Below are positions 29,629 through 45,320 of a DNA stretch of 64,000 nucleotides, in pieces. The notes beneath the pieces are model-generated. The model was given only the letters and a program-made list of their open reading frames with translations. It did not search any database and was not told the origin of the DNA. The DNA comes from Kutzneria buriramensis (GTDB taxonomy: Bacteria > Actinomycetota > Actinomycetes > Mycobacteriales > Pseudonocardiaceae): assembly GCF_003387475.1 (NCBI RefSeq), contig NZ_QUNO01000002.1, positions 248,001 to 312,000 of the forward strand, in the 5' to 3' direction. The translations under genes were made by a program, and so were the position numbers. Each line of letters starts with the position of its first letter. Position 1 is the first letter of the stretch.

Positions 29629-29824
29629 GCGTGCACCGTCTCCGTGCGTCGAAATGAGCGTTCGCTGTCCAGATTCGCAAATCAATGCGTATCGGGTCGA
29701 TCGCTGCACGCATATCACCCGGCGGGCGGAAGATCCGACCCTGCCGAGTGAAGAGGCAGTGTCCGCGATTCGTTCTCTCGGATATCGTCCCCGTTCCGGT
29801 CGTCGGCGACCGCTATTCCGGCGC

Positions 29825-31367: not shown

Positions 31368-32003
31368 CTAGGCACCCCTAACCCGGGCCAGCGACGGCAA
31401 AGTGAAGCCTGACGCCAGTTCTCGCAGCGCGATGTCCAGCAGCGCCGGCAGATCCGCGTGCTCGGCGGCGAGCCACTGCTCGTGCGCGGCGATCGCCACT
31501 CCCAGCGCCGCGTACGCGATCGCCTGCGGCACAAGGGAATCCGCCGGCTGGCCCAGGCGTGGCGCGGCGAAATCGGCGATCACCTGCCGCCACTGCACGT
31601 ACCGGAGGGTGGCGTGCGCCTGGAGCGCCGGCACCCGCAGGATGAGCGCCATTCGCTTGCGGTGCCAGGGGATCTCGTCCTCTTCCAGTCGGTTGCAGGC
31701 CACCACGGCCTGCCGGATCGCGTCCATCACCGGCAGGCCCGGCGCGCAGTCGCGCAGCCACCGGCGCAGCCGCTCCAGCTCGCGGTCGAAGCCGCCCCAC
31801 GCGATGTCGTTCTTCGACGGGAAGTACCGGAAGAACGTGCGCCGGCTCATGCCGGCGGCCAGCGCCAGCTGGTCCACCGTGGTCGCCTCGTAGCCGTGCT
31901 CGGTGAACAGGTCCAGCGCCACGTGCTCCAGGTCGAGGTGGGTGGTGACGCGCCGCCGCCCGCCGCGGCCGCAATACTGGGTGTTTCCCCCGACCTCAGC
32001 CAT
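31368..32003 (-). CDS. mftR: MftR, TetR-family regulator of the mycofactocin locus
   Basis: A 211-residue TetR-type repressor. The HTH lies at about residues 25-65 with ALDLFTEHGYEATTVDQLA and the recognition region AAGMSRRTFFRYFPSKND. The C-terminal helical domain has the FDRELERLRRWL segment typical of MftR proteins. It diverges from mftA across 86 nt and its stop lies 86 nt from the P450 start. ATG 32003 is preceded by GGAAG at suitable spacing; a longer in-frame start at 32072 would run into the mftA promoter. In mycobacteria MftR represses the mft genes and is relieved by acyl-CoAs; the same control is inferred here. Confidence 0.88.
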   Translation of the reverse strand: MAEVGGNTQYCGRGGRRRVTTHLDLEHVALDLFTEHGYEATTVDQLALAAGMSRRTFFRYFPSKNDIAWGGFDRELERLRRWLRDCAPGLPVMDAIRQAVVACNRLEEDEIPWHRKRMALILRVPALQAHATLRYVQWRQVIADFAAPRLGQPADSLVPQAIAYAALGVAIAAHEQWLAAEHADLPALLDIALRELASGFTLPSLARVRGA

Positions 32004-32089
32004 GCTGTCTTCCAATCGGCACCGGGTGTCATTAGCTTCGTTGCTGTCGCCCCTGTCAGAGCGTCGCCCCAAACCCTCTGGAGTCTGTC
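32004..32089. promoter_or_regulatory. mftR-mftA divergent promoter region
   Basis: The 86-nt gap between the mftR start (minus strand) and the mftA start must hold both promoters and the MftR site. A GGAG at 32080-32083 is the mftA ribosome binding site, 6 nt from its ATG. No long palindrome was found by eye. Confidence 0.5.
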
Positions 32090-32185
32090 ATGGCGAACGA
32101 CGCGGAAAAGCCCACTACTTCTGATGACGTGGACGAGCTCCTGGTCGAGGAGGTCTCCATCGACGGCATGTGCGGCGTGTACTGA
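32090..32185 (+). CDS. mftA: MftA, mycofactocin precursor peptide
   Basis: A 31-residue ribosomal precursor. The C-terminus IDGMCGVY is the invariant end of mycofactocin precursors: the last Val-Tyr pair is converted by MftC (oxidative decarboxylation and cyclisation of Tyr with Val) and then released by MftE. The N-terminal leader is acidic (DDVDELLVEE) and is bound by MftB. GGAG at 32080-32083 sets the ATG. The gene is too short for ordinary ORF calling; it was found by reading the mftR-mftB gap. It lies 4 nt upstream of mftB, so it heads the operon. Confidence 0.97.
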   Translation: MANDAEKPTTSDDVDELLVEEVSIDGMCGVY

Positions 32186-32189
32186 GCCG

Positions 32190-32459
32190 ATGATCGACCC
32201 GACCCGACCGTACCGCCGGGCGCCCCAGGTGGCGCTGCGGCCCGAGCCGTTCGGCGCCCTGGTCTACCACTTCGGCACCCGGCGGCTGTCCTTCCTCAAG
32301 ACCCGGCAGCTGGCCGAAGTCGTCGCCACGCTCGAGGACAACGCCGACGTCGACTCCACTTTGGACTCCGTGGGGGTGGCGCCGGACCAGCGCGCCGCCT
32401 ACCTGCGCGCGCTGGCCGGCCTGGCCGACGCGGGCACGATTCAACCGCGGGAGCGCTAG
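32190..32459 (+). CDS. mftB: MftB, mycofactocin precursor-binding chaperone (PqqD-like)
   Basis: An 89-residue RRE-fold protein. YRRAPQVALRPEPFGALVYH and the following FLKTRQLAEVVATLED match MftB-type PqqD-like chaperones, which hold the MftA leader for MftC. The ATG is 4 nt after the mftA stop; a far longer in-frame extension upstream runs through mftR sequence and was rejected. Its stop is directly followed by the mftC ATG (no gap). Confidence 0.93.
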   Translation: MIDPTRPYRRAPQVALRPEPFGALVYHFGTRRLSFLKTRQLAEVVATLEDNADVDSTLDSVGVAPDQRAAYLRALAGLADAGTIQPRER

Positions 32460-33620
32460 ATGAAGCTGGTCGACCACTTCGAGACGGGTCTCGACGCGCC
32501 GATCTGCCTGACGTGGGAGCTCACCTACGCCTGCAATCTCGCCTGCGTGCACTGCCTTTCCTCCTCCGGCCGCCGCGACCCGCGCGAGCTGGACACCGCC
32601 CAGTGCCGTGCGGTGATCGACGAATTGCAGCGCATGCAGGTGTTCTACGTGAACATCGGCGGCGGCGAACCCACCGTGCGATCGGACTTCTGGGAGCTCG
32701 TGGAGTACGCCACCGACCACCAGGTCGGCGTGAAGTTCTCCACCAACGGCGTCCGCCTGTCGCCGGAGCGGGCGCAGTGGTTGGCCGGCAGCGACTACGT
32801 GGACGTGCAGATCTCGCTGGACGGGGCGACCGCGGCGGTCAACGACGCCGTGCGCGGGCCCGGCTCGTTCGCCACGGCCATGCGCGCCATGGGGAATCTC
32901 GCCGAGGCGGGCTTCCGCGACTTCAAGATCAGCGTGGTGATGACCCGGCAGAACGTCGACCAGCTCGACGACTTCGCGGCCATCGCCGACTCGTTCGACG
33001 CGCAGCTGCGCATCACGCGCCTGCGGCCGTCGGGGCGTGGCGCCGACGTGTGGGACGAGCTGCACCCGACCGCCGCCCAGCAGCGGCAGCTCTACGACTG
33101 GTTGGTGGCACACGGGGAAGGCGTCCTCACCGGCGACTCCTTCTTCCATCTCAACGCCCTCGGGTCCACCCCGCTGCCGGGGCTGAACCTGTGCGGCGCG
33201 GGCAAGGTGGTGTGCCTGATCGACCCAGTAGGGGACGTGTACGCGTGCCCCTTCGCGATCCACGAGCAGTTCCTCGCCGGCACCGTACGCGCTCCGGGCG
33301 GATTCACGGAGGTGTGGCGGAACTCCCCTCTGTTCGCCGACCTCCGCCGTCCGACGTCGGCGGGGACCTGCTCGTCCTGCCCGTCCTTCGACAGCTGCCG
33401 CGGCGGTTGCATGGCCGCGAAGTTCTTCACCGGCCTGCCGATGGACGGCCCGGACCCCGAATGCGTGCAGGGTCACGGGGAACTGGCGCTGGCCACCGCG
33501 GGCGCTCCGCCCCGGCCGTCGGCCGACCACTCCCGCCGCAAGCCGGTGCCGGTGTCGATCGGCTTCGGCCGACCGGCGGACCGAGCCTGCGACACGAGTC
33601 CCCTGGCGGGTATGCGGTGA
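32460..33620 (+). CDS. mftC: MftC, radical SAM/SPASM mycofactocin maturase
   Basis: A 386-residue radical SAM enzyme. The SAM-cluster motif C-x3-C-x2-C is CNLACVHC (Cys25, 29, 32); NIGGGEPTVR is the GGE motif. The C-terminal SPASM region has clustered Cys in CGAGKVVC, ACPF, CSSCPSFDSC and GGCM for two auxiliary clusters. MftC decarboxylates the C-terminal Tyr of MftA and then forms the Val-Tyr lactam ring. The last 45 residues are proline/arginine-rich and poorly conserved in appearance. The stop overlaps the next gene (GTGA). Confidence 0.96.
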   Translation: MKLVDHFETGLDAPICLTWELTYACNLACVHCLSSSGRRDPRELDTAQCRAVIDELQRMQVFYVNIGGGEPTVRSDFWELVEYATDHQVGVKFSTNGVRLSPERAQWLAGSDYVDVQISLDGATAAVNDAVRGPGSFATAMRAMGNLAEAGFRDFKISVVMTRQNVDQLDDFAAIADSFDAQLRITRLRPSGRGADVWDELHPTAAQQRQLYDWLVAHGEGVLTGDSFFHLNALGSTPLPGLNLCGAGKVVCLIDPVGDVYACPFAIHEQFLAGTVRAPGGFTEVWRNSPLFADLRRPTSAGTCSSCPSFDSCRGGCMAAKFFTGLPMDGPDPECVQGHGELALATAGAPPRPSADHSRRKPVPVSIGFGRPADRACDTSPLAGMR

Positions 33621-35485
33621 GACTGACGACGCCGGTCGTGCTGGCCGGCCGGACCGCGCCCAGCCGCGTGATGTTCGGGCCGCACGAGACGAATCTGGGC
33701 CGCAAGCGGGCGATCTCGCTGCGGCACGTGGCCTACTACGAGCGCCGCGCGGCCGGCGGCGCCGGGATCGTCGTCACCGAGACCGCCAGCGTGGACGACA
33801 GCGACTGGCCGTACGAAAGGGCCCCGCTGGCGGCCGAGTGCCAGCCCGGCTGGGCGTCCGTGGTGACCGCCTGCCGTCCACATGGGACGCTCGTGCTGGC
33901 GTCGCTGGGCCACGCCGGTTCCCAGGGCTCCTCGGCGTATTCGCGGACGGCGCTCTGGGCCCCTTCGCGGGTTCCGGACGTCGCCAGCCGGGAACTCCCG
34001 ATGGAGATGGAGGAGGCGGAGATCGACCGGCTGCTGTCGGGCTTCTCGTACGCCACCGCCATCGCCATGGAGTCCGATGTGGACGGTGTCGAGATCGATG
34101 CCGGCCAGCACAGCCTACTGCGGCAGTTCCTCTCCGGGCTGACCAATCAGCGTGCCGACGAGTACGGCGCCGATCGGGCACTGCTGCTCCGCGAGGCTCT
34201 GAGCGCCGTAAGGGATGTGCTCGGCGCCGACCGCGTCCTCGGCCTCCGGCTCTCCTGCGACGAACTGGCCCCGTGGGCCGGCATCACCCCCGAGCACGCC
34301 GCCGAACTCGCCGCCAAGCTGGCGAAATGCGTCGACTACATCGCGGTGGTGCGGGGTTCGGCGATGTCCACCTCGGCCACCCGCCCCGACCTGCACACCC
34401 CCGCCGGCTTCAACATGGACCTGTGCCGGGACATTCGGTCCGCGGTGGGTGGCGTCGCCGAGGTGATCCTGCAAGGGTCGGTCGTCGACCCGGGGCAGGC
34501 CGAGTGGGCGCTGGAGACCGGCGTCGCCGACCTGGTGGAGATGACCCGCGCGCAGATCGCCGAGCCGAACCTCGTCGCCCTGTACGACGCCGAGCAGCCG
34601 GAGCGGATCCGGCCGTGCCTGCTGTGCAACCAGCGGTGCCGCGTCCGTGATGGCCGCAACGCCGTCGTGAGCTGCGTCGTCGAGCCGGCCAGCGGCCACG
34701 AGACGACGGACCGGCCGCCGGCGCCGACCACCGCCCCGCGCGAGGTGCTCGTCGTCGGCGGCGGTCCGGCAGGGTTGGAGGCGGCGCGGGCGCTCGCCGA
34801 TCGCGGTCACAGCGTCGAGCTGATGGAACGGGACTCGCAGCTCGGCGGCTCGCTGCGGCTGTCGCCGCTGGAGAGCTTCGCCGGCTGGCTGGAGGCGGAG
34901 GTGCGGCGCCTGGGCGTGAAGATCCGCACCGGCGAGGCGGCCACCAGCGCCGACCTGACCGGACGAACCGTGGTGCTGGCAACGGGTTCGGTGCCCGGGC
35001 CACGTTCGTACGACATCGACGGCGGCCAGGTGCTCGATGTGGCCGAGGTACTGCGGGCCGGCCTCGACGACCTGCCGGCCGGCCCGGTGGTGGTCTTCGA
35101 CCCCGTCGGCGACTCCGTCGGCGCACGCATCGCCGAACTGCTGGCGTCGTCGGGTCGTGACACCACCGTCGTCACACGGGACGCCGTCATCGGTACCCAA
35201 CTGGCGGTCACCGGCGACCTCGCCGACGCCAACGCCCGGCTGCACCGCGCCGGTGTGCGACTGGTCAAGCGGTCGACGCTGCTGGCGGTGCGAGACGCCA
35301 GCGTCGTGGTGGAACACGTGCTCACCGGCGAGAAGCAGGAGCTCGCCTGCGGCCTGGTCGTCCACTGTGGACATCGCTTGCCGGATGAGACGCCCGGCCC
35401 GCTGCGGGCCGGCGACTGCGTGGCGCCCCGAACCCTGTACGAGGCCGTGTTGGAGGGCCGGCGCGCGGCCCAGGAGGTCGGCTGA
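33617..35485 (+). CDS. Mycofactocin-system FadH/OYE-family oxidoreductase 1
   Basis: A 622-residue 2,4-dienoyl-CoA-reductase-like flavoprotein. Residues 1-330 form an OYE TIM barrel (FMN). A [4Fe-4S] site follows with Cys in CLLCNQRC and SCVVEP, and residues from about 375 form an FAD/NAD(P)-binding Rossmann domain (VLVVGGGPAGLEAARALADR). The barrel active site is unusual: EIDAGQHSLLRQFLSGLTNQR replaces the canonical H-G-Y-L-L-x-x-F-L-S-P. The GTG start overlaps the mftC stop and the stop overlaps the next ATG. Enzymes of this pair are confined to mycofactocin loci; the substrate is unknown. It may handle a redox step on mycofactocin or an associated enoyl substrate. Confidence 0.9.
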   Translation: MRLTTPVVLAGRTAPSRVMFGPHETNLGRKRAISLRHVAYYERRAAGGAGIVVTETASVDDSDWPYERAPLAAECQPGWASVVTACRPHGTLVLASLGHAGSQGSSAYSRTALWAPSRVPDVASRELPMEMEEAEIDRLLSGFSYATAIAMESDVDGVEIDAGQHSLLRQFLSGLTNQRADEYGADRALLLREALSAVRDVLGADRVLGLRLSCDELAPWAGITPEHAAELAAKLAKCVDYIAVVRGSAMSTSATRPDLHTPAGFNMDLCRDIRSAVGGVAEVILQGSVVDPGQAEWALETGVADLVEMTRAQIAEPNLVALYDAEQPERIRPCLLCNQRCRVRDGRNAVVSCVVEPASGHETTDRPPAPTTAPREVLVVGGGPAGLEAARALADRGHSVELMERDSQLGGSLRLSPLESFAGWLEAEVRRLGVKIRTGEAATSADLTGRTVVLATGSVPGPRSYDIDGGQVLDVAEVLRAGLDDLPAGPVVVFDPVGDSVGARIAELLASSGRDTTVVTRDAVIGTQLAVTGDLADANARLHRAGVRLVKRSTLLAVRDASVVVEHVLTGEKQELACGLVVHCGHRLPDETPGPLRAGDCVAPRTLYEAVLEGRRAAQEVG

Positions 35486-37425
35486 TGGCGTTCCGCTTCC
35501 TGTTCTCGCCGTTCCGGGTCGGCCCGGTGACGCTCGCGAACAGGGTGGTCTTCTCCGCGCACCTCACCAACTACGCCGAGGACGGGCTGCCCAGCGCGCA
35601 GCACGCCGCCTACTACGCCGCGCGCGCCGCCGGCGGCGTCGGGCTGATCATCACCGAGGAGCACTCCACCCACCCGTCGGACTGGCCGTACGAGAAGCTC
35701 ATCCACGGCTTCAACCCGGAGGTGGTCGAGGGCTACCGCCGGATCACCGACGCCGTGCACGCCCACCGCGTGCCGATCTTCGCCCAGCTCAACCACAACG
35801 GCGGCCAGGCCTCCAGCCTGTACTCACGGCTGCCGGTGCTGGCCCCGTCGCCGGTGCCGGACCCGCTGTTCCGCGAGGTGCCCAAGGCCGTCGACGACAA
35901 GGACATCGCCGAGATCGTCGCCGGCTACGCCCTGGTGGCAAGGCACTGCGCCGAGGGCGGCTTCGACGGCGTCGAGCTCCAGTGCTCGCACTCGTCCATC
36001 GTGCGGGGATTCCTTTCGCCGGCGACGAACAAGCGCACCGACCGCTACGGTGGCCCGCTGGGCAACCGCGCCCGGATCCTGCTGGAGATCGTGGCGGCGG
36101 TCCGCGAGGCCATCGGCCCCGGCCGCGCGCTCGGCGTGCGGCTCTGCGGCGACGAGCTCATCGAGGGCGGCATCAAGCTCGACGAGGCCGTCGAGGTGGC
36201 GCGTCTCGTGGAAGCCACCGGCCAGGTCGACTACATCAACACCTCCATCGGCGTCGCCACCTCGACCCTGTTCATGATCGAGGCGTCCATGGCGATCCCG
36301 CCCGGCTACGCCCTGTTCATCGCCAACGCCATGCGGCAGGCCGTCAAACTGCCGGTGATCGGCGTCGGGCGGATCAAGGACCCCGTACAGGCCGAGCGCG
36401 CCCTCGCCGAGGGCCACTGCGACCTGGTCGGCGTCGTCCGCGGCCAGATCGCCGACCCCGAGTTCATGGCCAAGGCCCGTTCCGGGCACGTCAGCGACAT
36501 CCGAACGTGTCTGTCGTGCAACCAGGAATGCGTCGGGCGGATGGGCCTGAACCACACCCTTGGCTGCATCGAGAATCCCCGTGCCGGCAACGAATCCGTG
36601 CCGCTGTCCGCCCCTCGCCGGCGCGGCCGGCGGATCCTCGTCGTCGGCGGGGGCCCCGCCGGCTTGCAGGCCGCCGCCACCGCCGCCCAGCGCGGGCACC
36701 AGGTCACCCTGTTCGAACGCTCCCCGGCAACCGGCGGCCAGGCCGCCCTCGCCGCCACCGTCCCGTCCCGGGCCGAATTCCTTGATCTGCCACGGAATCT
36801 CCTCGCCGAGTGCAAGCGACACGGCGTCGAGGTCCGCACCGGCGTCGACGCCACCGTCGAGGCGTTGCGGGCCGAGAGCCCCGACGTCGTCATCCTTGCC
36901 ACCGGCGCCCGCCCCAAGCCACCGTACTGGGCCGGCGATCTCGCTCAGGTCGTGGACGTTCGTGACGTGCTGGAGGGCCGTGCCGAGCCGGTGGGCGACG
37001 TGCTCGTCATCGACGAACTCGGCTTCCACCAGGCCACTTCCGTCGCCGAACTGCTGGCGGACCGCGGCTGCCGGGTCCGGATCAGCACCCCCGGCATGGT
37101 CGTCGGCCAGGACCTCGGCGTCACCCTGGACATGGAGATGTTCCTGCTCCGGGCCCACCACAAGGGCATCGCCCTGACCACCGACGAGGTCGTCATGGGG
37201 GCGTCCGAGGGCGTCGAGGTGCAGATCCTCCGGCACACCACCGGCGAGATGACCACCTCGAGGTTCGACTGGGTGGTCTGCGCCGTGCACCAGGAGCCCG
37301 AGGACGAGCTGTGGCGGGGGTTGAAGGGCGCGCCGTTCGAGGTGCACCGGGTGGGCGACTGCCTGACCCCGCGCCGAGCCCACGCCGCGGTCATCGAGGG
37401 ACACCGGGTGGGGGTATCGCTGTGA
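35485..37425 (+). CDS. Mycofactocin-system FadH/OYE-family oxidoreductase 2
   Basis: A 646-residue paralogue of the preceding gene with the same three parts: OYE barrel (FLFSPFRVGPVTLANRVVF), iron-sulfur Cys set CLSCNQECVG plus GCIENP, and a dinucleotide-binding domain beginning ILVVGGGPAGLQAAATAA near residue 385. Its barrel keeps LQCSHSSIVRGFLSPATNKR and RYGGPLGNR, closer to canonical FadH than copy 1. ATG overlaps the upstream stop by one base. The two proteins may form a heteromer or act in sequence. Electron transfer through FMN, Fe4S4 and FAD would fit coupling to the ETF proteins encoded next, which is inference. Confidence 0.9.
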   Translation: MAFRFLFSPFRVGPVTLANRVVFSAHLTNYAEDGLPSAQHAAYYAARAAGGVGLIITEEHSTHPSDWPYEKLIHGFNPEVVEGYRRITDAVHAHRVPIFAQLNHNGGQASSLYSRLPVLAPSPVPDPLFREVPKAVDDKDIAEIVAGYALVARHCAEGGFDGVELQCSHSSIVRGFLSPATNKRTDRYGGPLGNRARILLEIVAAVREAIGPGRALGVRLCGDELIEGGIKLDEAVEVARLVEATGQVDYINTSIGVATSTLFMIEASMAIPPGYALFIANAMRQAVKLPVIGVGRIKDPVQAERALAEGHCDLVGVVRGQIADPEFMAKARSGHVSDIRTCLSCNQECVGRMGLNHTLGCIENPRAGNESVPLSAPRRRGRRILVVGGGPAGLQAAATAAQRGHQVTLFERSPATGGQAALAATVPSRAEFLDLPRNLLAECKRHGVEVRTGVDATVEALRAESPDVVILATGARPKPPYWAGDLAQVVDVRDVLEGRAEPVGDVLVIDELGFHQATSVAELLADRGCRVRISTPGMVVGQDLGVTLDMEMFLLRAHHKGIALTTDEVVMGASEGVEVQILRHTTGEMTTSRFDWVVCAVHQEPEDELWRGLKGAPFEVHRVGDCLTPRRAHAAVIEGHRVGVSL

Positions 37426-38339
37426 TCGACACGGATTTCCTTGCCATCGTCGTCGTCCGCGACGGCGAGCTGCCCCTCGGCGCCGACGAGGTCACCGCCG
37501 AGGCCGATGGCTCGGTGCTGGTCGTCGGAACCGACGCGAAGGTGGCTGCCGGGCAGCTGACCGCCGCCCGGACCGCCTGGATCGCCGAGAGCCCGAAGGT
37601 CGCCCCCGCCGCGCTGGCCGCCGCGCTGACTCCGGTCGTGAAAGGTGTACGAACGATCGTGCTTTCTTCTTCCCCGGACGGCCGCGACCTCGCGCCCAGA
37701 CTGGCCTACGCGCTGCGGCGACCCCTCCTGACCGGCGCAAACGCGGTCACGAGGACGAGCGCGGACGTCCTGCGCTGGGGGAGCCAGGCGCTGGTGGAAC
37801 TGACGCCGGACGGCCCGTTCGTGGCGACGTTGCAGCCGGGTGTCCGGGGTGCGGCACCGCTGCCGACTCCGGCCCGGCTCGTCGAGATTGCGCTGACGGG
37901 CGTCGAGGTGAAGGACGCGGTGTCGGTCGAGGTGACGACGCCGAACGCGCAGGAGGCGGACCTCGCGGAGGCGCGCCGGGTGCTCGGGGCCGGCGCGGGG
38001 CTGGTCACCGGGCCGGAGCAGATGGAGCTGCTGGCGAGGGTCGGGGAGCGGCTCGGCGCGTCGACGGGGGCGACGCGTGTGGTCACGGACGCCGGGTGGG
38101 TGGGCCACGAACGGCAGATCGGGACGACGGGTGTGGTGATCGACCCGGACCTGTACGTCGCGTTCGGGATCTCCGGCGCGGCGCAGCACGTGGGCGGCCT
38201 CGGCAGCCCGCGGCACGTGATCAGCGTGAACACCGATCCCTGCTGCCCGATGACGGCCCGGGCCGACCTGGGCATCGTCGCCGACGCCCCGGCGGTGCTG
38301 GCGGAACTCGCACGGCGGCTGGAGGAGAGAGATGCCTGA
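37422..38339 (+). CDS. Mycofactocin-associated electron transfer flavoprotein, alpha subunit
   Basis: A 305-residue ETF-alpha. The C-terminal FAD domain is clear: VTDAGWVGHERQIGTTG, then DLYVAFGISGAAQHVGG and SVNTDPCCPM, matching the R-Q-I-G-x-T-G and G-I-S-G-A-x-Q-H signatures. The N-terminal half is divergent from housekeeping FixB/EtfA. GTG start overlaps the OYE2 stop (GTGA) and the end overlaps the FixC-like gene by 8 nt. Its beta partner is encoded two genes downstream rather than next to it, an interleaved order with the FixC/FixX-type genes. Confidence 0.9.
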   Translation: MIDTDFLAIVVVRDGELPLGADEVTAEADGSVLVVGTDAKVAAGQLTAARTAWIAESPKVAPAALAAALTPVVKGVRTIVLSSSPDGRDLAPRLAYALRRPLLTGANAVTRTSADVLRWGSQALVELTPDGPFVATLQPGVRGAAPLPTPARLVEIALTGVEVKDAVSVEVTTPNAQEADLAEARRVLGAGAGLVTGPEQMELLARVGERLGASTGATRVVTDAGWVGHERQIGTTGVVIDPDLYVAFGISGAAQHVGGLGSPRHVISVNTDPCCPMTARADLGIVADAPAVLAELARRLEERDA

Positions 38340-39687
38340 GCACGCAGGCCCGGGCACGACGTCGACGGTCGTCGCCGCGACGCCGCAGCGCGCGGTGGAC
38401 GTGGTGGTGGTCGGCGCGGGACCGGCCGGCTCGGCGGCGGCGCTGGAAGTGGCCCGTGCCGGGCATTCGGTGGTGCTGCTGGAACGCGGCCCGTATCCCG
38501 GCTCGAAGAACGTCTACGGCGGCGTGGTGTACGGCCGGGTGCTGGACGAGCTGGTGCCGCGCTGGTGGGAGCAGATGCCGGTGCAGCGCTGGGTGACCCG
38601 CCGCAGCACCATGATCATGACGCCGACGCAGGCGCTCACCGTGGACTTCCGCACGCAGGCGTGGGCCGGCCCGCCGTACAACGGGGCCACCGCGCACCGC
38701 TCCGACCTCGATGGCTGGCTCGCCGGCCTCGCCGAGAAGGAAGGCGCGGTCCTCGTTCCTTCGACCGTCGCCACGGGGCTGCTGCGCGACACCGCCGGCG
38801 CGATCGTCGGCGTCCGCACCGACCGTCCGGACGGAGACCTCACCGCCAAGGTCGTGATCGCCTGTGACGGCGTGAACTCCTTCCTGGCCAAGGAAGCCGG
38901 CATGTTCGCCGGCAAGCCCACCGGGCACGTCACCCTCGGCGTCAAGGAGACCCTGCGGCTGCCACGCAGCGTCATCGACGAGCGGTTCGGCGTCGCCGGC
39001 CAGGACGGCGTCGACATCGAGATCCTCGGCTGCACCAGGGGAATCCCCGGCGGCGGCTTCGTCTACACCAACCTCGACTCGCTCAGCGTCGGCGTTGTCG
39101 TCGATCCGCACGGCCTGGCCGGCAAGCGGTTGCGGCCCGAGGAGCTGGTCGCCGACCTCAAGCGGCACCCGGCTATAGAACCGTTGGTACGGGGCGGCGA
39201 GCTGCTGGAGTACTCCGCGCACCTCATCCCCGAGGGCGGCTACGACACCATGCCCGAACTTGTCGGCGACGGCTTCCTGGTCGCCGGCGACGCCGCGGCC
39301 ATGTGCCTGGCGGCCGGAATTTGGCTGGAGGGCGTCAACTTCGCCCTCGGGGCCGGCATGTACGCCGGCCGCGCCGCGGTCGACGCCCTGAAGGTCGGCG
39401 ACACCTCCAAGACGGGCCTCGCCTCATACCGGCGCATGCTGGACGAGTCGTTCGTGCTGGCCGACCACCGAAAGCTGCGCCGGGTGCCCGGACTCGTGCT
39501 GGGGCAACGGATGCAGGAGAGCTACCCGGCGATGCTGTGCGATCTCGCGCAGGGGCTGTTCCACGTGGACAACCCGCAACCGAAACCAGGGCTGCTCAAG
39601 CTGGTTCGCCGTACGTTGAAGCGCCACGGCATTCGCACGCGGGACGTGGTGTCCGACGCGCTGACCGGAGTGAGGTCGTTCGGATGA
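38332..39687 (+). CDS. FixC-like FAD oxidoreductase (ETF:quinone oxidoreductase-type)
   Basis: A 451-residue flavoprotein. It has the N-terminal GAGPAGSAAALEVARAG dinucleotide motif after about 25 extra residues, a second FAD contact at FLVAGDAAAMCLA near residue 320, and the quinone-side sequence LEGVNFALGAGMYAG. FixC and ETF-QO proteins accept electrons from ETF and pass them to the quinone pool at the membrane, usually with a FixX-type ferredoxin encoded next door, as here. GGAGGAGAGAG precedes the ATG. The stop overlaps the ferredoxin start (ATGA). Confidence 0.92.
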   Translation: MPEHAGPGTTSTVVAATPQRAVDVVVVGAGPAGSAAALEVARAGHSVVLLERGPYPGSKNVYGGVVYGRVLDELVPRWWEQMPVQRWVTRRSTMIMTPTQALTVDFRTQAWAGPPYNGATAHRSDLDGWLAGLAEKEGAVLVPSTVATGLLRDTAGAIVGVRTDRPDGDLTAKVVIACDGVNSFLAKEAGMFAGKPTGHVTLGVKETLRLPRSVIDERFGVAGQDGVDIEILGCTRGIPGGGFVYTNLDSLSVGVVVDPHGLAGKRLRPEELVADLKRHPAIEPLVRGGELLEYSAHLIPEGGYDTMPELVGDGFLVAGDAAAMCLAAGIWLEGVNFALGAGMYAGRAAVDALKVGDTSKTGLASYRRMLDESFVLADHRKLRRVPGLVLGQRMQESYPAMLCDLAQGLFHVDNPQPKPGLLKLVRRTLKRHGIRTRDVVSDALTGVRSFG

Positions 39688-39974
39688 CCTACGACCAGCC
39701 CGCGTTCGACGATCACATGTCCACTGTGGACTTCGAGGTCGCGCGGCGGCCGCACATCACCGTGAACAACGAGGTGTGCCGGTCGTGCCGGACGACCGAC
39801 TGTGTGTACGCGTGCCCGGCGAAGCTGTTCGTGCCGACCTCCGACGGCGGCATCCTGTTCAACTACGAGCAGTGCTTCGAATGCGGCACGTGCTACCAGG
39901 TCTGCTCGGGGCAGGGCGCCCTGAGCTGGACCTATCCCGACGGCGGCCACGGGGTCGCCTTCCGGAAGGGGTGA
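39684..39974 (+). CDS. FixX-like ferredoxin
   Basis: A 96-residue ferredoxin-like protein. Two Cys groups are present, CRSCRTTDCVYACP and CFECGTCYQVC, the pattern of FixX and of the C-terminal Fe4S4 domain of ETF:quinone oxidoreductase. Together with the FixC-like protein it makes a two-chain equivalent of mitochondrial ETF-QO. ATG overlaps the upstream stop. TYPDGGHGVAFRKG is a typical FixX tail. Confidence 0.93.
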   Translation: MTYDQPAFDDHMSTVDFEVARRPHITVNNEVCRSCRTTDCVYACPAKLFVPTSDGGILFNYEQCFECGTCYQVCSGQGALSWTYPDGGHGVAFRKG

Positions 39975-39979
39975 TCGGC

Positions 39980-40828
39980 GTGCTGGTTGTCGCCGCGTTG
40001 ACCTGGCCCGGCCCGCGCGTCGCGGTCGACCAGCTGACGGGCACGGTGCGGACCGAGGAGGGCCGTCCGGGTGCGAGCGCGGCGGGGCTGGCGGCGCTGG
40101 AACACGTGTTCCGGCTGGCGGAGTCTCTGGGCGGCCGGGCGCTGGCCGTGACGATCGGGCCGCCGCAGGCGGACGAGATGCTGCGCGAGGCGCTGGCGGC
40201 CGGGGCGCTGCACGTGCTCCGCGTCGAGGCGGACCCGGCGGATGACGAGGCGGCGGCCCGAGCGCTGCTGTCGGCGGTCGCCGAACACCACGGCCCTCCC
40301 GATGTCGTGGTGTTCGGCGACGACTCCGGCGCGGTCCCCGGCTACCTCGCCGCGCTCACCGACGCGGCGCAGGCGTTGGGGCTGCTGGAACTCACGGCCG
40401 ACGGAGGCGTCCTCGGTGGACTGCGGCGGCTGGACAAGGGCCGCCGCGAACGGTTGGAGATCCCGTTGCCGGCGGTGTGCTCGGTGGAGCCGGTGCTGCG
40501 GCCCCGGCGCGCCGGCCTGCCGGCGATGTTGGCCGCTCGTAACACGAAAATCCCCGTCGTGCGGCCAGACGTTCCGCAGCATCGATTTCCCTCGGGGCCG
40601 GTGAAGGCCACAGCGCCCAGGGCATACCGGCCGCGCGCCAGAATTGTTCCGATACCGGCCGCCGATCGCGCCATAGACCGCATAGTTGCACTGACGAACG
40701 GGTTGGGGGCGAACGCGCTGGCCACCGGCGGCTCCGCGACCGTGGTCACGCCGCCCGACGCGGCGGCCGCGGCCGACCTGGTGATCGAGTACCTGACCGA
40801 GCACGGCTATCTGGGGGACACGACATGA
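39980..40828 (+). CDS. Mycofactocin-associated electron transfer flavoprotein, beta subunit
   Basis: A 282-residue ETF-beta-like protein. The overall pattern is ETF beta, with an alternating alpha/beta N-terminus, then LPAVCSVEPVLRPRRAGLPAM, the equivalent of the conserved L-P-A-x-x-x-x-x-x-x-x-x-x-R-Y-P segment. It is divergent: the R-Y-P is R-A-G here. The C-terminal tail after about residue 200 is longer than usual. GTG 39980 is preferred because GGAAGG lies 10 nt upstream; GTG 39971, overlapping the ferredoxin stop, is the alternative and would match the overlap style of the operon. It pairs with ETF alpha to shuttle electrons from dehydrogenases to the FixCX-like proteins. Confidence 0.83.
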   Translation: MLVVAALTWPGPRVAVDQLTGTVRTEEGRPGASAAGLAALEHVFRLAESLGGRALAVTIGPPQADEMLREALAAGALHVLRVEADPADDEAAARALLSAVAEHHGPPDVVVFGDDSGAVPGYLAALTDAAQALGLLELTADGGVLGGLRRLDKGRRERLEIPLPAVCSVEPVLRPRRAGLPAMLAARNTKIPVVRPDVPQHRFPSGPVKATAPRAYRPRARIVPIPAADRAIDRIVALTNGLGANALATGGSATVVTPPDAAAAADLVIEYLTEHGYLGDTT

Positions 40829-41610
40829 CGCCACGAGTCGCGATCGTCACGGGCGCGGCCCGTGGCATCGGCGCGGCCGTCGTGCGCCGATTGGCCGGCG
40901 ACGGCTGGCGGGTCGTGGCGGTGGACATCTGCGAGGACATCCCCGGCCTCGGCTACTCGTTGGCATCCAAGGAAGAACTGCTCACGCTGGCCCGCCGGTT
41001 CCCGGACGAGGTGCGCGAGGTCGTCGCCGATGTGCGCGACAACCGCGCACTCCAGGACGCGGCCGAGCTGGCGTACACGGAGTTCGGCGGGCTGGACGCG
41101 GCCGTCGCGGCGGCGGCGGTGATCGCCGGCGGACGTCCGCTGTGGGAGTCCGGCGACGACGAATGGCGGCTGCAACTGGACATCGGCGTCCTCGGCGTGG
41201 CGAACCTGGCCCGCGCGGCGATCCCCGTGATGCTCCGAGAACAGCAGCCCCGCTCCGGCCGGTTCGTCGCGCTCGCCTCGGCCGCCGGCCACCGCGGCCT
41301 CTGGCACGCCGCCGGCTACAACGCGACCAAGCACGGGGTCGTCGGCCTGATCCGGGGCCTGGCGCACGACCTTCGCGGCACCGGCGTCACCGCGACCGCG
41401 GTGTCCCCGGGCAGCACCCGAACCGATCTGCTCGACGCCAGCGCCGCCCTCTACGACCTGGCCGACGTCGAGGAATTCAGCCGCTACCACCTCACCGAGC
41501 GGCTGCTGCGGCCCGAGGAGGTGGCCGACGTCGTGTGCTGGCTGTGCGGTAGGGAGGCGTCCGCCATCACCGGCACCGTCGTGCACGCCGACGGGGGGTT
41601 CACCGCATGA
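40825..41610 (+). CDS. Mycofactocin-coupled SDR family oxidoreductase (second subfamily)
   Basis: A 261-residue SDR with TGAARGIGAAVVRRLAGD at the N-terminus, VVAVDICEDIPGL after it, catalytic Ser in VALASAAGHR, Y-x-x-x-K in GYNATKHGVVG and the tail VVHADGGFTA. The unusual insertion DICEDIPGLGYSLASKEELLTL is characteristic of a mycofactocin-linked SDR subgroup distinct from that at 24719. It is translationally coupled on both sides (ATGA overlaps). Placement between ETF beta and mftF argues that it supplies or accepts electrons through mycofactocin. Confidence 0.88.
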   Translation: MTPRVAIVTGAARGIGAAVVRRLAGDGWRVVAVDICEDIPGLGYSLASKEELLTLARRFPDEVREVVADVRDNRALQDAAELAYTEFGGLDAAVAAAAVIAGGRPLWESGDDEWRLQLDIGVLGVANLARAAIPVMLREQQPRSGRFVALASAAGHRGLWHAAGYNATKHGVVGLIRGLAHDLRGTGVTATAVSPGSTRTDLLDASAALYDLADVEEFSRYHLTERLLRPEEVADVVCWLCGREASAITGTVVHADGGFTA

Positions 41611-42968
41611 TCCCTTTGCGCGTCACCCCGGATCCCGGCGCGCGCCGCATCGGCAACCTGATCCTGGGCGGTTCGCCGTACGTCGTGCTCAGGCTCTCCG
41701 CCAAGGCGGTGTCCCGAGTGGACGCCTGGCTGGCCGGCGAGCCGGTCGCCCCCGACGACGCCAAGCTGGCAGATCTGCTGGTGCGTAAGGGAATTCTACA
41801 CCCCAAACGCGAGATCACCAGCCTCACCGCGCAGGATGTGACCGTAGTCGTGCCGGTGCGCGACCACGCCGATGATCTCGCCCGCCTGCTGCCGGCGTTG
41901 TCCGAGGTCGCGAAGGTGCTGGTGATCGACGACGGATCGGCCGAGCCGATTCGAGCGGCGACCGTCCGACACCACAAGGCCAAGGGCCCGGCCGCCGCGC
42001 GCAACGCCGGCTGGCGGCTCGCCGGCACCGAGCTCGTCGCCTTCCTGGACGCGGACGTGCGGCCCGAACCTGGCTGGCTGGCCACGATCCTGCCGCACTT
42101 CGAGGACCCGAGCGTCGTCGCCGTCGCGCCGCGCGTGGCCAGCACGCCGGGTCCGTCCGTGCTCGACCGCTACGAAGAACTCCGCTCGCCGCTGGACCTG
42201 GGCGCCGCCGAGGCGCCGGTCCGGCCCGGCAGCCGAGTCAGTTACGTCCCGTCGGCCGCGCTGGTCGTCCGCTTCAACGCGCTCCTGGAGCACGACGGTT
42301 TCGACGAGGACATGCGCTTCGGCGAGGACGTCGACCTGGTCTGGCGCTTCCACGAGGCGGGCGCGCAGATCCGTTACGAGCCAACCGCAATTGTTCATCA
42401 TCGCCCCCGTGAGACGTGGTCGGCCTGGGTGCGGCAGCGATTCGGGTACGGCACTTCCGCCGCCCCGCTGGCGCTCCGCCATGGCAGAGCTGTTGCTCCG
42501 GTGAAGATCTCGATGTGGAGCGCCCTGGCGTGGGCGCTCGTCGCCGCCGGGCGGCCGGTGCTGGCTGGAGCCGTCGCCGGCACCACCGCGTCGTTGCTGC
42601 CACGCAAACTGAGTGACGTCGGTGTGCCGGCGACGGAGTCGGTGCAGCTCGCGGTCCGCGGCCATGTCGGCGCGGGGCGGCTGCTGGGCGATGCCGTGGT
42701 GCGCTCGTGGTGGCCGGTGGCCATCCCGGTGCTGGCGTCGACCCGTTGGGGCCGTTGGGTTCTGCTGGCGGCGTTCGCCCGCCACGTCGAGGAGTGGTAC
42801 ACCCGGGGGGCCAAGGTCGGCCTGCCCGGCTGGCTCGCCGCCCGGATCCTCGACGACCTCGCGTACGGGGCGGGCGTCTGGTGGGGCGCGGTCAAGCACC
42901 GCACCGTCAGGCCGTTGCTGCCGGACCTGTCCGACTGGCCCGGCCGGGACGGGGTCGGCCGCACGTGA
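41607..42968 (+). CDS. mftF: MftF, mycofactocin glycosyltransferase
   Basis: A 453-residue GT2-family protein. The first about 70 residues look PqqD-like, as in other MftF proteins. The GT-A domain then shows VTVVVPVRDHADD, VLVIDDGSAE, the DxD in AFLDADVRPEPGW and FGEDVDLVWRFHEAG (E-D acid pair). The C-terminal third has hydrophobic stretches that may contact the membrane (PVKISMWSALAWALVAAG). MftF adds beta-1,4-glucose chains to mycofactocin, making oligoglycosylated carriers. Coupled starts and stops on both sides. Confidence 0.94.
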   Translation: MIPLRVTPDPGARRIGNLILGGSPYVVLRLSAKAVSRVDAWLAGEPVAPDDAKLADLLVRKGILHPKREITSLTAQDVTVVVPVRDHADDLARLLPALSEVAKVLVIDDGSAEPIRAATVRHHKAKGPAAARNAGWRLAGTELVAFLDADVRPEPGWLATILPHFEDPSVVAVAPRVASTPGPSVLDRYEELRSPLDLGAAEAPVRPGSRVSYVPSAALVVRFNALLEHDGFDEDMRFGEDVDLVWRFHEAGAQIRYEPTAIVHHRPRETWSAWVRQRFGYGTSAAPLALRHGRAVAPVKISMWSALAWALVAAGRPVLAGAVAGTTASLLPRKLSDVGVPATESVQLAVRGHVGAGRLLGDAVVRSWWPVAIPVLASTRWGRWVLLAAFARHVEEWYTRGAKVGLPGWLAARILDDLAYGAGVWWGAVKHRTVRPLLPDLSDWPGRDGVGRT

Positions 42969-43648
42969 ACCGCCTGATCGACATGACCTGGCCGGAGGTC
43001 GAGGCCGTCGCCGCGGCCAGCGTGCTGGCCGTTCCGGTCGGCTCGACCGAGCAGCACGGCCCGCACCTGCCGTTCACCGTGGACACCGAGATCGCCGCCG
43101 CGCTGTGCGGCCGGCTGGCGAAGGCCCGCGACCGGGTGGTCGTGGCTCCCGCCTTCTCGTACGGCTCCAGTGGTGAACATGCTGCATTCCCGGGCTCGCT
43201 GTCGATCGGTCTCGACGCCGTCGAGACCCTGCTGGTGGAACTGGTTCGCTCCGCCGACGCGTTCGCCGGCGTCCTGCTGGTCAACGGGCACGGCGGCAAC
43301 GCCGCCGCGGTGTCCCGCGCTGTGCAGCGGCTCAACCACGAGGGTCGTCGCGTCACCTGCTGGTCGCCGACCGGGTCCGCTGTGGACAGTCACGCCGGCC
43401 GCACCGAGACGTCGGTGATGTTGGCGCTGCGCCCCGAATCCGTCCGGCTCGACCGGGCCGAGCCCGGGGACCGCCGGCCGCTGCGGGAGATCATGCCGCT
43501 GCTGGTCCGCTCTGGAGTTGTTTCCGTCAGTGCCAACGGTGTTCTCGGTGATCCGACCGGCGCCTCCGGCGGAGAAGGCCGGCGCGTCCTGGAGCATTGG
43601 ACGGCCGGCCTGCTCTCGGCGTACGACACATGGACACCAGTCTCGTGA
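42965..43648 (+). CDS. mftE: MftE, creatininase-family mycofactocin peptidase
   Basis: A 227-residue creatininase-fold metallopeptidase. Metal ligands appear in VGSTEQHGPHLP, an Asp in FTVDTEIA and NGHGGNAAAV; later Glu in HAGRTETS. It releases the modified C-terminal dipeptide (AHDP) from MftA after MftC has acted. GTG start overlaps the mftF stop. It is the last gene of the operon and ends 5 nt from the stop of the convergent MFS gene, with no room for a separate terminator. Confidence 0.94.
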   Translation: MNRLIDMTWPEVEAVAAASVLAVPVGSTEQHGPHLPFTVDTEIAAALCGRLAKARDRVVVAPAFSYGSSGEHAAFPGSLSIGLDAVETLLVELVRSADAFAGVLLVNGHGGNAAAVSRAVQRLNHEGRRVTCWSPTGSAVDSHAGRTETSVMLALRPESVRLDRAEPGDRRPLREIMPLLVRSGVVSVSANGVLGDPTGASGGEGRRVLEHWTAGLLSAYDTWTPVS

Positions 43649-43653
43649 CCGCG

Positions 43654-45240
43654 TCAGACCGCGGCCGGCTCCCGCACCTCCTTGTCCTCGTCGGAGACGG
43701 TGGGCTGCGGCGGCGTGGGCTTGATCCGCCGCAGCAGGGCGATGGTGAAGATCGCGGTGAGCAGCGCGACCGCGCCGCCGGCCAGCGAGGCGGTGTGCAC
43801 CGCGCCGGTGAAGGCCTCGCGGGCCACGTCGAGCAGCGCGTTGCCCTGCGCCGCCGGCAGTTGCTGCGCCACCTCGGACGCGCCGGCGACGGTCTGCCGG
43901 GCCGCGTTCAGCGCGGCGGCCGGCACGTTGTGCGGGGCGTCGGCGTCGAAGTTCGAGCTGTAGGCGAGGGCGCCGATGGAGCCCAGGACCGCGATGCCCA
44001 GCGCGCCACCGAGTTCCTGCCCGGTCTGCACGAGAGCGCCGGCGGAACCGGCGTGCTCGGCGGGCGCCGCGCCGACGACCATGTCGGTGATGCAGGTCAG
44101 GGCCACCGCCACGCCCAGGCCGACGCCGATCGTCCCGGCGACCACCAGGAACATGTTCCGGTCCGTGCCGACCTGCGTCATGATCAGGAAGCCGACCGTG
44201 CCGACCAGGAAGCCGGCGGCGATGATGTAGGCCGGGCGGACGGTGCGGGCCACGACCGTCACGAACGGCACGGCGATGGTCACCACGACCGGCGACACCA
44301 GCGTCCAGAGCGCCGCCTCCAGCGGGCTCATGTGCAGCACCTCCATCAGGTACTGCGTGGTGAAGATGCCCGAGCCGATCATGCAGAAGAAGCAGGCCAG
44401 CGCCACGCTCAGGGACGCGCCGAAGTCGCGGTTGCGGAACAGCGCCGGGTTGATCATCGGGTGGGACAGCGACTTCTGCCGCCGCACGAACACGTAGCCG
44501 AGCACGATGCCGGCGACGATGGCCACGCCGGGCAGGGCGCTCAGGCCGTTGACGGTGATCTCCTTGAGACCCCAGATGATCGACAGCACGCCGCCCAGCG
44601 ACAGCACCGCCGAGGCGATGTCGAACTTGCCGGCCTCGGCCTTGGGCAGCCGGTACTCCGGGATCAGCACCGGGCACAGCGCCAGCAGCACGATGATCGC
44701 CGGCACGTTGATCAGGAACACCGAGCCCCACGAGAAGTTGTTCAGCAGCAGGCCGCCGACGACCGGGCCGAGGCCGGCCCCCGCGGACAGCGCGGTGGAC
44801 CACACGGCGATCGCGGACCGGCGCTGCTTCTCGTCCTGGAACATGTTGCGCACCAGGGCGAGCGTGGACGGCATCAGGGTGGCGCCGCCGATGCCCTGCA
44901 CGGCGCGGGCGACGATCAGCATCGTCGGGTCGGTGGAGAAGGCGGCGGCGACCGAGGCGGCGCCGAAGATCGCGGAACCGATCATCAGGAGTCGGCGGCG
45001 GCCGATGCGGTCGCCGACGTTGCCCATCGTGATCAGCAGTCCGGCCAGCACGAAGCCGTACATGTCGATCATCCACAGCTGCTGCGTGCCGGTGGGCTGC
45101 AGCGCCGACGCGATGGACGGGATCGCGAAGTACAGCACGGTCATGTCCATCGAGACCAGGAGCAGGGGCAGGGCGAGGACGGCCAGGCCGATCCATTCAC
45201 GGCGTCCTGCCAGGCGAGGGGTTTGCGTGGCGTGTGTCAT
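43654..45240 (-). CDS. MFS drug transporter, DHA2 (14-TMS) family
   Basis: A 528-residue proton-antiporter with about 14 hydrophobic segments. Motif A is GNVGDRIGRRRLL near residue 70 and the antiporter motif C appears as SAGAGLGPVVGG. A loop near the C-terminus (ADAPHNVPAAALNAARQTV) is typical of SmvA/QacA-like pumps. ATG 45240 is used; a longer in-frame start would run through the operator and promoter. It diverges from an SDR gene with a strong palindrome between (45249-45277). It may export the macrolactam or another toxic compound; the location next to the mft operon may be incidental. Confidence 0.93.
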   Translation of the reverse strand: MTHATQTPRLAGRREWIGLAVLALPLLLVSMDMTVLYFAIPSIASALQPTGTQQLWMIDMYGFVLAGLLITMGNVGDRIGRRRLLMIGSAIFGAASVAAAFSTDPTMLIVARAVQGIGGATLMPSTLALVRNMFQDEKQRRSAIAVWSTALSAGAGLGPVVGGLLLNNFSWGSVFLINVPAIIVLLALCPVLIPEYRLPKAEAGKFDIASAVLSLGGVLSIIWGLKEITVNGLSALPGVAIVAGIVLGYVFVRRQKSLSHPMINPALFRNRDFGASLSVALACFFCMIGSGIFTTQYLMEVLHMSPLEAALWTLVSPVVVTIAVPFVTVVARTVRPAYIIAAGFLVGTVGFLIMTQVGTDRNMFLVVAGTIGVGLGVAVALTCITDMVVGAAPAEHAGSAGALVQTGQELGGALGIAVLGSIGALAYSSNFDADAPHNVPAAALNAARQTVAGASEVAQQLPAAQGNALLDVAREAFTGAVHTASLAGGAVALLTAIFTIALLRRIKPTPPQPTVSDEDKEVREPAAV

Positions 45241-45248
45241 GACCAGAA

Positions 45249-45277
45249 CTATACATACGTCTCTGACGTTTGTATAG
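45249..45277. promoter_or_regulatory. Near-perfect 29-bp operator palindrome between MFS and SDR genes
   Basis: CTATACATACGTC (45249-45261) and GACGTTTGTATAG (45265-45277) are inverted repeats with one mismatch around TCT. It starts 9 nt from the MFS start codon, so a bound repressor would block MFS transcription and probably the SDR too. This is the typical form of a TetR-family operator. No dedicated regulator gene adjoins; the TetR at 47811 is 2.5 kb away. Confidence 0.8.
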
Positions 45278-45320
45278 AACGAATGTATGAAATGGGTTCC
45301 GACCTGCAAGGAGTCAGATC

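Follow-up and report, generated by a model that had tools for sequence, protein, structure and literature searches.

The window analysed here is a stretch of 64,000 nucleotides from Kutzneria buriramensis (contig NZ_QUNO01000002.1, positions 248,001 to 312,000 of the forward strand), and positions given without a contig or locus label are counted within it. It carries a mycofactocin (mft) operon with the gene order mftR-mftA-mftB-mftC-OYE1-OYE2-etfA-fixC-fixX-etfB-SDR-mftF-mftE (Table 1), in which no MftD is encoded. The mftR gene, whose stop codon occupies 31368-31370, is divergent from the rest of the operon; four bases separate mftA from mftB, mftC follows mftB with neither gap nor overlap, and each of the nine junctions between mftC and mftE is an overlap of 1 to 8 bases if etfB starts at the GTG at 39971, the alternative GTG at 39980 turning the fixX/etfB junction into a 5-base gap. 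The mft, OYE, electron transfer flavoprotein (ETF) and SDR proteins were scored against curated NCBIfam cut-offs and all exceed them. The original prediction, made from the sequence alone, had listed mftR, mftA, mftB, mftC, mftF and mftE, near-universal junction overlap and two OYE/FadH genes in an operon devoid of mftD, and this description is borne out by the family scores and the checked reading frames. It left unmentioned the etfA-fixC-fixX-etfB block between the OYE genes and the SDR gene, which proved to be the informative part of the locus.

In mycofactocin biosynthesis, MftE releases AHDP and MftD deaminates AHDP to premycofactocin (PMC11778925). Since the redox-active group of mycofactocin is the product of MftD, mft-containing actinobacteria without mftD must either make this group otherwise or use a different cofactor. 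The operon described here belongs to a widespread and conserved class of mycofactocin operons, most of them found without MftD. We propose, giving it an even chance, that OYE2, acting through ETF and FixCX, would replace MftD in AHDP deamination, the chemistry being drawn by analogy. When compared with the mycobacterial mft cluster (mftABCDEF, mftR and mftG), the operon is alike in the MftA core IDGMCGVY and in MftR, MftB, MftC, MftE and MftF; unlike that cluster, it belongs to a genome without MftD over cut-off and without a match to MftG (TIGR03970) at E 1e-100 (16/45 first-look candidates scored), and it contains OYE1, OYE2, ETF, FixC, FixX and an SDR protein, the latter being a likely user of the mycofactocin cofactor.

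Table 1. Genes of the mycofactocin operon, with positions in the window, best family scores and family cut-offs in bits.
Gene	Positions	Strand	Product and supporting match
mftR	31371..31949	-	TetR-type regulator; TIGR03968 260 (cut-off 225); PF17754 MftR C-terminal domain
mftA	32090..32185	+	31-aa precursor, end IDGMCGVY; TIGR03969 50 (cut-off 25)
mftB	32190..32459	+	Peptide chaperone; TIGR03967 110 (cut-off 33)
mftC	32460..33620	+	Radical SAM maturase; TIGR03962 643 (cut-off 265)
OYE1	33617..35485	+	FadH/OYE family oxidoreductase 1; TIGR03996 829 (cut-off 628)
OYE2	35485..37425	+	FadH/OYE family oxidoreductase 2, proposed AHDP dehydrogenase; TIGR03997 1004 (cut-off 793)
mft etfA	37422..38339	+	Electron transfer flavoprotein alpha; NF038209 445 (cut-off 240); PF00766
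fixC	38332..39687	+	FixC-like ETF:quinone oxidoreductase; best solved relative 7koe_C FixC, 254; NF007542 322, below cut-off
fixX	39684..39974	+	FixX-like ferredoxin; NF011993 53, below cut-off; Fer4 domains
mft etfB	39971..40828	+	Electron transfer flavoprotein beta; TIGR04503 250 (cut-off 200); start GTG 39971 or 39980
SDR	40825..41610	+	Mycofactocin-coupled SDR oxidoreductase; SDR_subfam_2 TIGR04504 390 (cut-off 250)
mftF	41607..42968	+	Glycosyltransferase; TIGR03965 444 (cut-off 280)
mftE	42965..43648	+	Peptidase; TIGR03964 272 (cut-off 172)

Regarding mftD itself, the whole source genome (12 Mb, estimated to be 100% complete with 4.93% contamination), in which mftC gives a single match over cut-off, has no recognisable copy: the best of 30 scored candidates reaches 220 bits with the MftD family TIGR03966 against a cut-off of 470.85. 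Here and below, absence of mftD means that no TIGR03966 match exceeds the cut-off, a definition that a very divergent MftD would escape. This best match (C10:319107-320201) scores 322 bits as L-lactate dehydrogenase, and three paralogous genes among the source-genome matches score higher with L-lactate dehydrogenase families. A clear mftD elsewhere in the genome, which the original prediction had named both as an alternative and as one half of the result that would speak against a variant pathway, was searched for and not found, and these scores rule the alternative out here for any recognisable MftD. A frameshifted mftD was also considered for pieces lying in two frames at C2:449504-450483 and was rejected, these being lactate-dehydrogenase-like. 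MftD exceeds its cut-off in none of seven Kutzneria genomes; mftC is present in three of the seven, all three with the same operon, and the four genomes without mftC still give TIGR03966 matches of 251 to 262 bits. Contamination was discarded as the source of the operon, which lies on an 825-kb contig and is carried by two further Kutzneria genomes, 74 to 94% identical gene by gene. Of note, a lactate-dehydrogenase-like gene of the source genome (L020:2987-4071) is found in two overlapping frames, reflecting a frameshift or an assembly error, and in Kutzneria G250 the mftE match (L023:15618-16312) is split over two frames, this mftE being possibly broken or mis-sequenced.

The same association recurs far beyond Kutzneria. 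When named bacterial genomes were scanned with an EtfA alignment, 217 stretches were confirmed, the best 80 of which were used. The genes etfA-fixC-fixX-etfB occur in that order and on one strand in 73 of these 80 loci, and the whole run mftC-OYE1-OYE2-etfA-fixC-fixX-etfB in 49, many of the others being interrupted by contig ends. With a known MftD as query, no match was found in the stretches around the 80 loci, which extend at most 10 kb, and in some cases less, to either side of etfA. Genome-wide searches for mftD were carried out for 50 and then 23 of these loci. Among the first 50 ETF-positive genomes, mftD is lacking in 39, exceeds the cut-off in 10 and is split over two contigs in A. 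rhizosphaerae; by their record titles they comprise 38 isolates, 11 of which have mftD and 27 do not, and 12 metagenome bins, none with mftD. In the second set of 23, whose titles mark nearly all as metagenome bins, a single genome contains mftD. The 13 Saccharopolyspora species all have the same operon, six with mftD and seven without it, and among named ETF-positive Amycolatopsis mftD occurs in 2/10; the ETF-negative genomes G110, G122 and G217 of group g8 (Amycolatopsis if G102 is A. sacchari) all possess mftD. Some mftD-less genomes (A. pithecellobii, A. acidicola and S. spinosa) give TIGR03966 matches of 332 to 359 bits. Two stretches titled Bifidobacterium breve, L117 and L122, carry mycofactocin-operon genes; their titles appear to be wrong, since the OYE2 proteins of L122 and of actinobacterium IMCC26207 (L123) hardly differ.

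Within the order Mycobacteriales, an even sample contained mftC in 131/248 genomes, 80 of which were carried on: each of the two largest families contributed 20, and the 40 that belong to other families were all included. MftD exceeds its cut-off in 78 of these 80 genomes (best match per genome 638 to 736 bits) and is missing only from the source genome and G008. The mycofactocin EtfA exceeds its own in four, the source genome and G008, both without mftD, and G102 and G189, which have it. The gene mftD is hence present in 76/76 ETF-negative genomes vs 2/4 ETF-positive ones (Fisher p 0.0019), and among 20 mapped loci the full etfA-fixC-fixX-etfB block is found only in the Kutzneria genomes, G008, G102 and G189. 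In four genomes of one genus (G010, G021, G030 and G039; family f11, genus g30), only the C-terminal part of the mycofactocin EtfA is present, beside OYE2 (L030:12889-13257). Members of the order with OYE genes and no ETF usually keep an intact mftD elsewhere, mostly distant from the operon. Indeed, OYE2 scores above 650 bits in 22 genomes, 20 of them (including the ETF-positive G102 and G189) with mftD, which is far from mftC in 18/20 vs 14/58 of the other genomes (p 2.5e-7; far meaning more than 20 kb away or on another contig, as counted by eye). Among the open reading frames picked in 12 loci around remote mftD genes, mftD alone, in 10 loci, recurred in at least four, and no conserved partner emerged.

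Outside the order, a sample of the phylum (398 genomes, 82 with mftC) provided 57 further mftC-containing genomes, 38 with and 19 without MftD. An OYE gene adjoins mftC in 17/19 of the genomes lacking mftD vs 1/38 of those possessing it (p 2e-11; 5.5e-9 without five divergent genomes of family f45), only relatives of OYE1 or OYE2 that lie near mftC with 40% identity or more counting as adjacent, which leaves out the 28 to 32% OYE1 matches of the mftD-positive L156, L167 and L189. ETF genes are found near mftC in 9/19 vs 0/38. On an MftC tree of 124 rows, built by a quick method from a sample enriched by design for ETF loci and leaving out L054, L057 and L068, which repeat G250, G102 and G189, at least 19 changes of mftD and at least 17 of local ETF are needed. 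Among 11 independent pairs differing in mftD, on average presence of mftD goes with absence of ETF in 6.4, with the opposite in 0.0, and 4.6 show no difference (median p 0.031, range 0.008 to 0.125); the corresponding contrast for OYE gives 4.4 with and 0.3 opposite (median p 0.125). Family f45 (L151, L168, L172, L179 and L185) stands apart by a divergent MftC, 39-43% identical to that of the source, and by loci that line up OYE2, etfA, fixC, fixX, etfB and a relative of MftF consecutively and in which tblastn gave no match for MftA, MftB, OYE1 or MftE, although a short MftA could escape such a search. From these gene contents, f45 is possibly a distinct variant cofactor system.

The residues of OYE2 follow the same divide. 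OYE1 and OYE2 have the architecture common to 2,4-dienoyl-CoA reductase (FadH), 2-naphthoyl-CoA reductase (NCR) and the histamine and trimethylamine dehydrogenases, and the four 4Fe-4S cluster cysteines of OYE2, common to the histamine/trimethylamine dehydrogenase type and FadH, are invariant in 39/39 aligned rows (Cys342, 345, 349 and 361), with one replacement at 345 in a larger set; in OYE1, the cluster position 337 is Cys in only 52/80 rows. At the second Rossmann site, OYE2 lacks the GxGxxG motif, as do histamine dehydrogenase and HisD, while FadH has it. His169 of OYE2 aligns with a His in the histamine dehydrogenases 3k30 and 6de6 and in HisD (6l6j), the equivalent residue being Glu in FadH (1ps9) and Val in NCR (6qkg), which otherwise share the fold. 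Residue 169 is His in 73/73 ETF-positive rows (71 genomes, as the repeats L057 and L068 are among the rows) and in 3/3 mftD-negative rows without a full local ETF match (including L185, which has a shorter one), and Gln in 10/12 ETF-negative, mftD-positive rows. Cys221 is likewise kept in 73/73, 3/3 and 1/12 of these rows, respectively. At the same thresholds, no position covarying like 169 and 221 of OYE2 was found in OYE1.

On the OYE2 tree, G213 and the trio G110, G122 and G217, all ETF-negative and mftD-positive with Gln169, fall inside ETF-positive, His169 clades. The trio OYE2 is 69-70% identical to that of the source vs 78-79% in three ETF-positive Amycolatopsis, for MftC the values are 77-78% vs 80-81%, and the identities of MftE and MftF to the source are equal in the two groups. 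More generally, the median difference between OYE2 and MftC identity is +1.3 points with ETF (n 57) and -12.3 points without it (n 12). This suggests a faster change of OYE2 in genomes without ETF that is only partly specific, since MftE and MftF fall too, by 6 and 8 points.

The etfA-fixC-fixX-etfB block encodes the same four components as the FixABCX/EtfABCX complex 7koe (FixC, FixX and two ETF subunits, FixC and FixX scoring below their NCBIfam cut-offs), which we take to be a bifurcating complex. The operon FixC resembles 7koe_C far more (254 bits) than the ETF:ubiquinone oxidoreductase 2gmh (61 bits). EtfA gives 99 bits to 5ol2_A and 91 to 7koe_B, and EtfB 48 bits to human ETF vs 38 to 7koe_A; unlike those of FixABCX, the ETF subunits of the operon form separate mycofactocin families. 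As MftA, MftB, MftC and MftE are intact, MftC and MftE would make AHDP as usual. OYE2 (TIGR03997), an enzyme of the FMN and 4Fe-4S type, would then take a hydride from the amine-bearing carbon of AHDP to give premycofactocin, with the OYE2 iron-sulfur cluster relaying the electrons to the ETF of the operon, from which FixC and FixX would deliver them to the quinone pool; OYE1 may be a partner or second subunit. The substrate, the direction of electron flow, the acceptor and the roles of OYE1 and of the other partners are assigned here by analogy. A precedent for such a gene arrangement is the nicotine cluster of A. tumefaciens S33, which combines etfAB and an ETF:quinone oxidoreductase gene with that of a histamine-dehydrogenase-like, methylamine-releasing enzyme; the ETF path was predicted in that work, for nicotine oxidation generally (PMC5500553). 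In its broadest form, the proposal is that OYE2, the mft ETF and FixCX constitute a second, unrelated premycofactocin synthase, an amine dehydrogenase linked to the respiratory chain, which would repeatedly have replaced MftD in Actinomycetota and whose own active site would have decayed in lineages that kept or regained MftD. We regard this wider claim as plausible, while placing it somewhat short of an even chance. The suggestion of the original prediction that another flavoenzyme of the operon deaminates AHDP thus receives partial support from the complementary distribution of mftD and ETF, the MftC-tree contrasts and the OYE2 active-site pattern.

Several observations weigh against the replacement of MftD by OYE2. 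The ETF module and mftD are not mutually exclusive, since 11/50 ETF-positive genomes retain mftD, and 10/19 of the mftD-negative genomes outside the order have no ETF near mftC; this search was local to mftC, and a local absence does not prove a true one because ETF, mftE and mftF form a separate block in other loci. OYE_2 exceeds its cut-off in 17 genomes of the order, 15 of them with mftD, which led us to reject the idea that the OYE genes replace MftD generally; within the order, it is the ETF genes and the predicted OYE2 active site that separate the groups, rather than OYE presence. On the OYE2 tree, the contrast between mftD and ETF gives p 0.25, and few independent events underlie the covariation in OYE2, which is not significant there (median p 0.25 to 0.5) and so makes for a strong pattern and a weak test. 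A His equivalent to residue 169 is also present in ordinary OYE reductases. Leu27 of OYE2 aligns with a Cys of 3k30, which we take to be the FMN-carrying Cys of histamine and trimethylamine dehydrogenases and which OYE2 thus lacks. By sequence, NCR (291 bits) and FadH (262 bits) come first, and OYE2 is only 26 to 28% identical to the histamine and trimethylamine dehydrogenases and HisD (3k30, 6de6, 2tmd and 6l6j), despite a similar full-length fold (Z 39.8 to 41.5). By predicted fold, the matches of OYE2 are NCR (Z 44.1), trimethylamine dehydrogenase (41.5), FadH (41.4) and histamine dehydrogenase (40.3). Structure was therefore set aside as a discriminator, the models of OYE2 (pLDDT 79) and OYE1 (pLDDT 87) matching amine dehydrogenases and reductases about equally; the best matches of the OYE1 fold are single-domain OYEs.

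A last point on that side is the distribution of mftG, which exceeds its cut-off in 4/41 ETF-positive vs 16/39 ETF-negative genomes, as expected if the OYE-ETF-FixCX module reoxidised reduced mycofactocin into the quinone pool, the task of MftG in mycobacteria, with mftD lost for another reason. This is the strongest rival explanation, and we consider it unlikely. The operon FixC is closest to a quinone-reducing FixC. Through MftG, mycofactocin is connected with respiration; roughly 25% of the genomes with mftC have no MftG, and what replaces it there was presented as an open question (PMC11778925). The mftG pattern is, however, largely phylogenetic, since mftG is rare either way in the source family (0/4 ETF-positive, 2/16 ETF-negative), and recycling leaves unexplained why absence of mftD follows the module within the source family and within Amycolatopsis. 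That the module performs both AHDP deamination and mycofactocin reoxidation is conceivable, because each reaction withdraws two electrons at the same carbon, and would agree with mftD and mftG being both scarcer with ETF and with the presence of two OYE paralogues; direct evidence is lacking and the divergent f45 family has OYE2 and ETF genes without an OYE1 match, which makes this dual role quite unlikely. It is improbable that the MftD step is now performed by an unlinked, lactate-dehydrogenase-like FMN enzyme: candidates do exist among the paralogues at and below 220 bits in the source genome and at 332 to 359 bits in other mftD-less genomes, yet those of the source score better as L-lactate dehydrogenase and comparable matches occur in Kutzneria genomes without mftC. 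Finally, an operon that performs no deamination and yields an AHDP-based or otherwise different product would fit the absence of MftD and is most improbable given MftF, the mycofactocin-coupled SDR protein and the mftD-less Saccharopolyspora clusters described beside the reported methylated mycofactocin of S. erythraea (PMC11162802).

The lack of mftD beside an OYE gene is partly known. It was already noted that TIGR03966 is found in most, not all, mycofactocin species (Haft 2011; PMC3023750), and the BGCFlow study of 2024 described 17 Saccharopolyspora clusters without mftD and with a TIGR03997 OYE of unknown function, and cited a report that S. erythraea produces a methylated mycofactocin (PMC11162802). 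These clusters have the same MftA ending, and 13 Saccharopolyspora loci share the source gene order from mftC to mftE. In the available part of that account, the gene is described as missing from the cluster, and no genome-wide search, ETF link or mechanism is given (PMC11162802). Within the open-licence literature, whose scope leaves out most subscription journals, we found no report of an ETF link, a complementary distribution or a replacement mechanism, and the replacement of MftD by OYE2 and ETF-FixCX is thus new as far as searched. It singles out an enzyme, an electron acceptor and a residue, suggests a role for an OYE family whose function was given as unknown (PMC11162802) and for its paralogue, and, if true, would wire cofactor maturation directly to the quinone pool. 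The present results also back the point made there that cluster-detection rules demanding mftD overlook such clusters (PMC11162802).

A scan of the locus for promoters and terminators gave no signal beyond chance. The neighbouring genes, for which membership of the operon is not shown, lie on the opposite strand and encode a large subtilase (26347-29718, -), a cytochrome P450 (30055-31281, -) and an MFS transporter (43657-45309, -).

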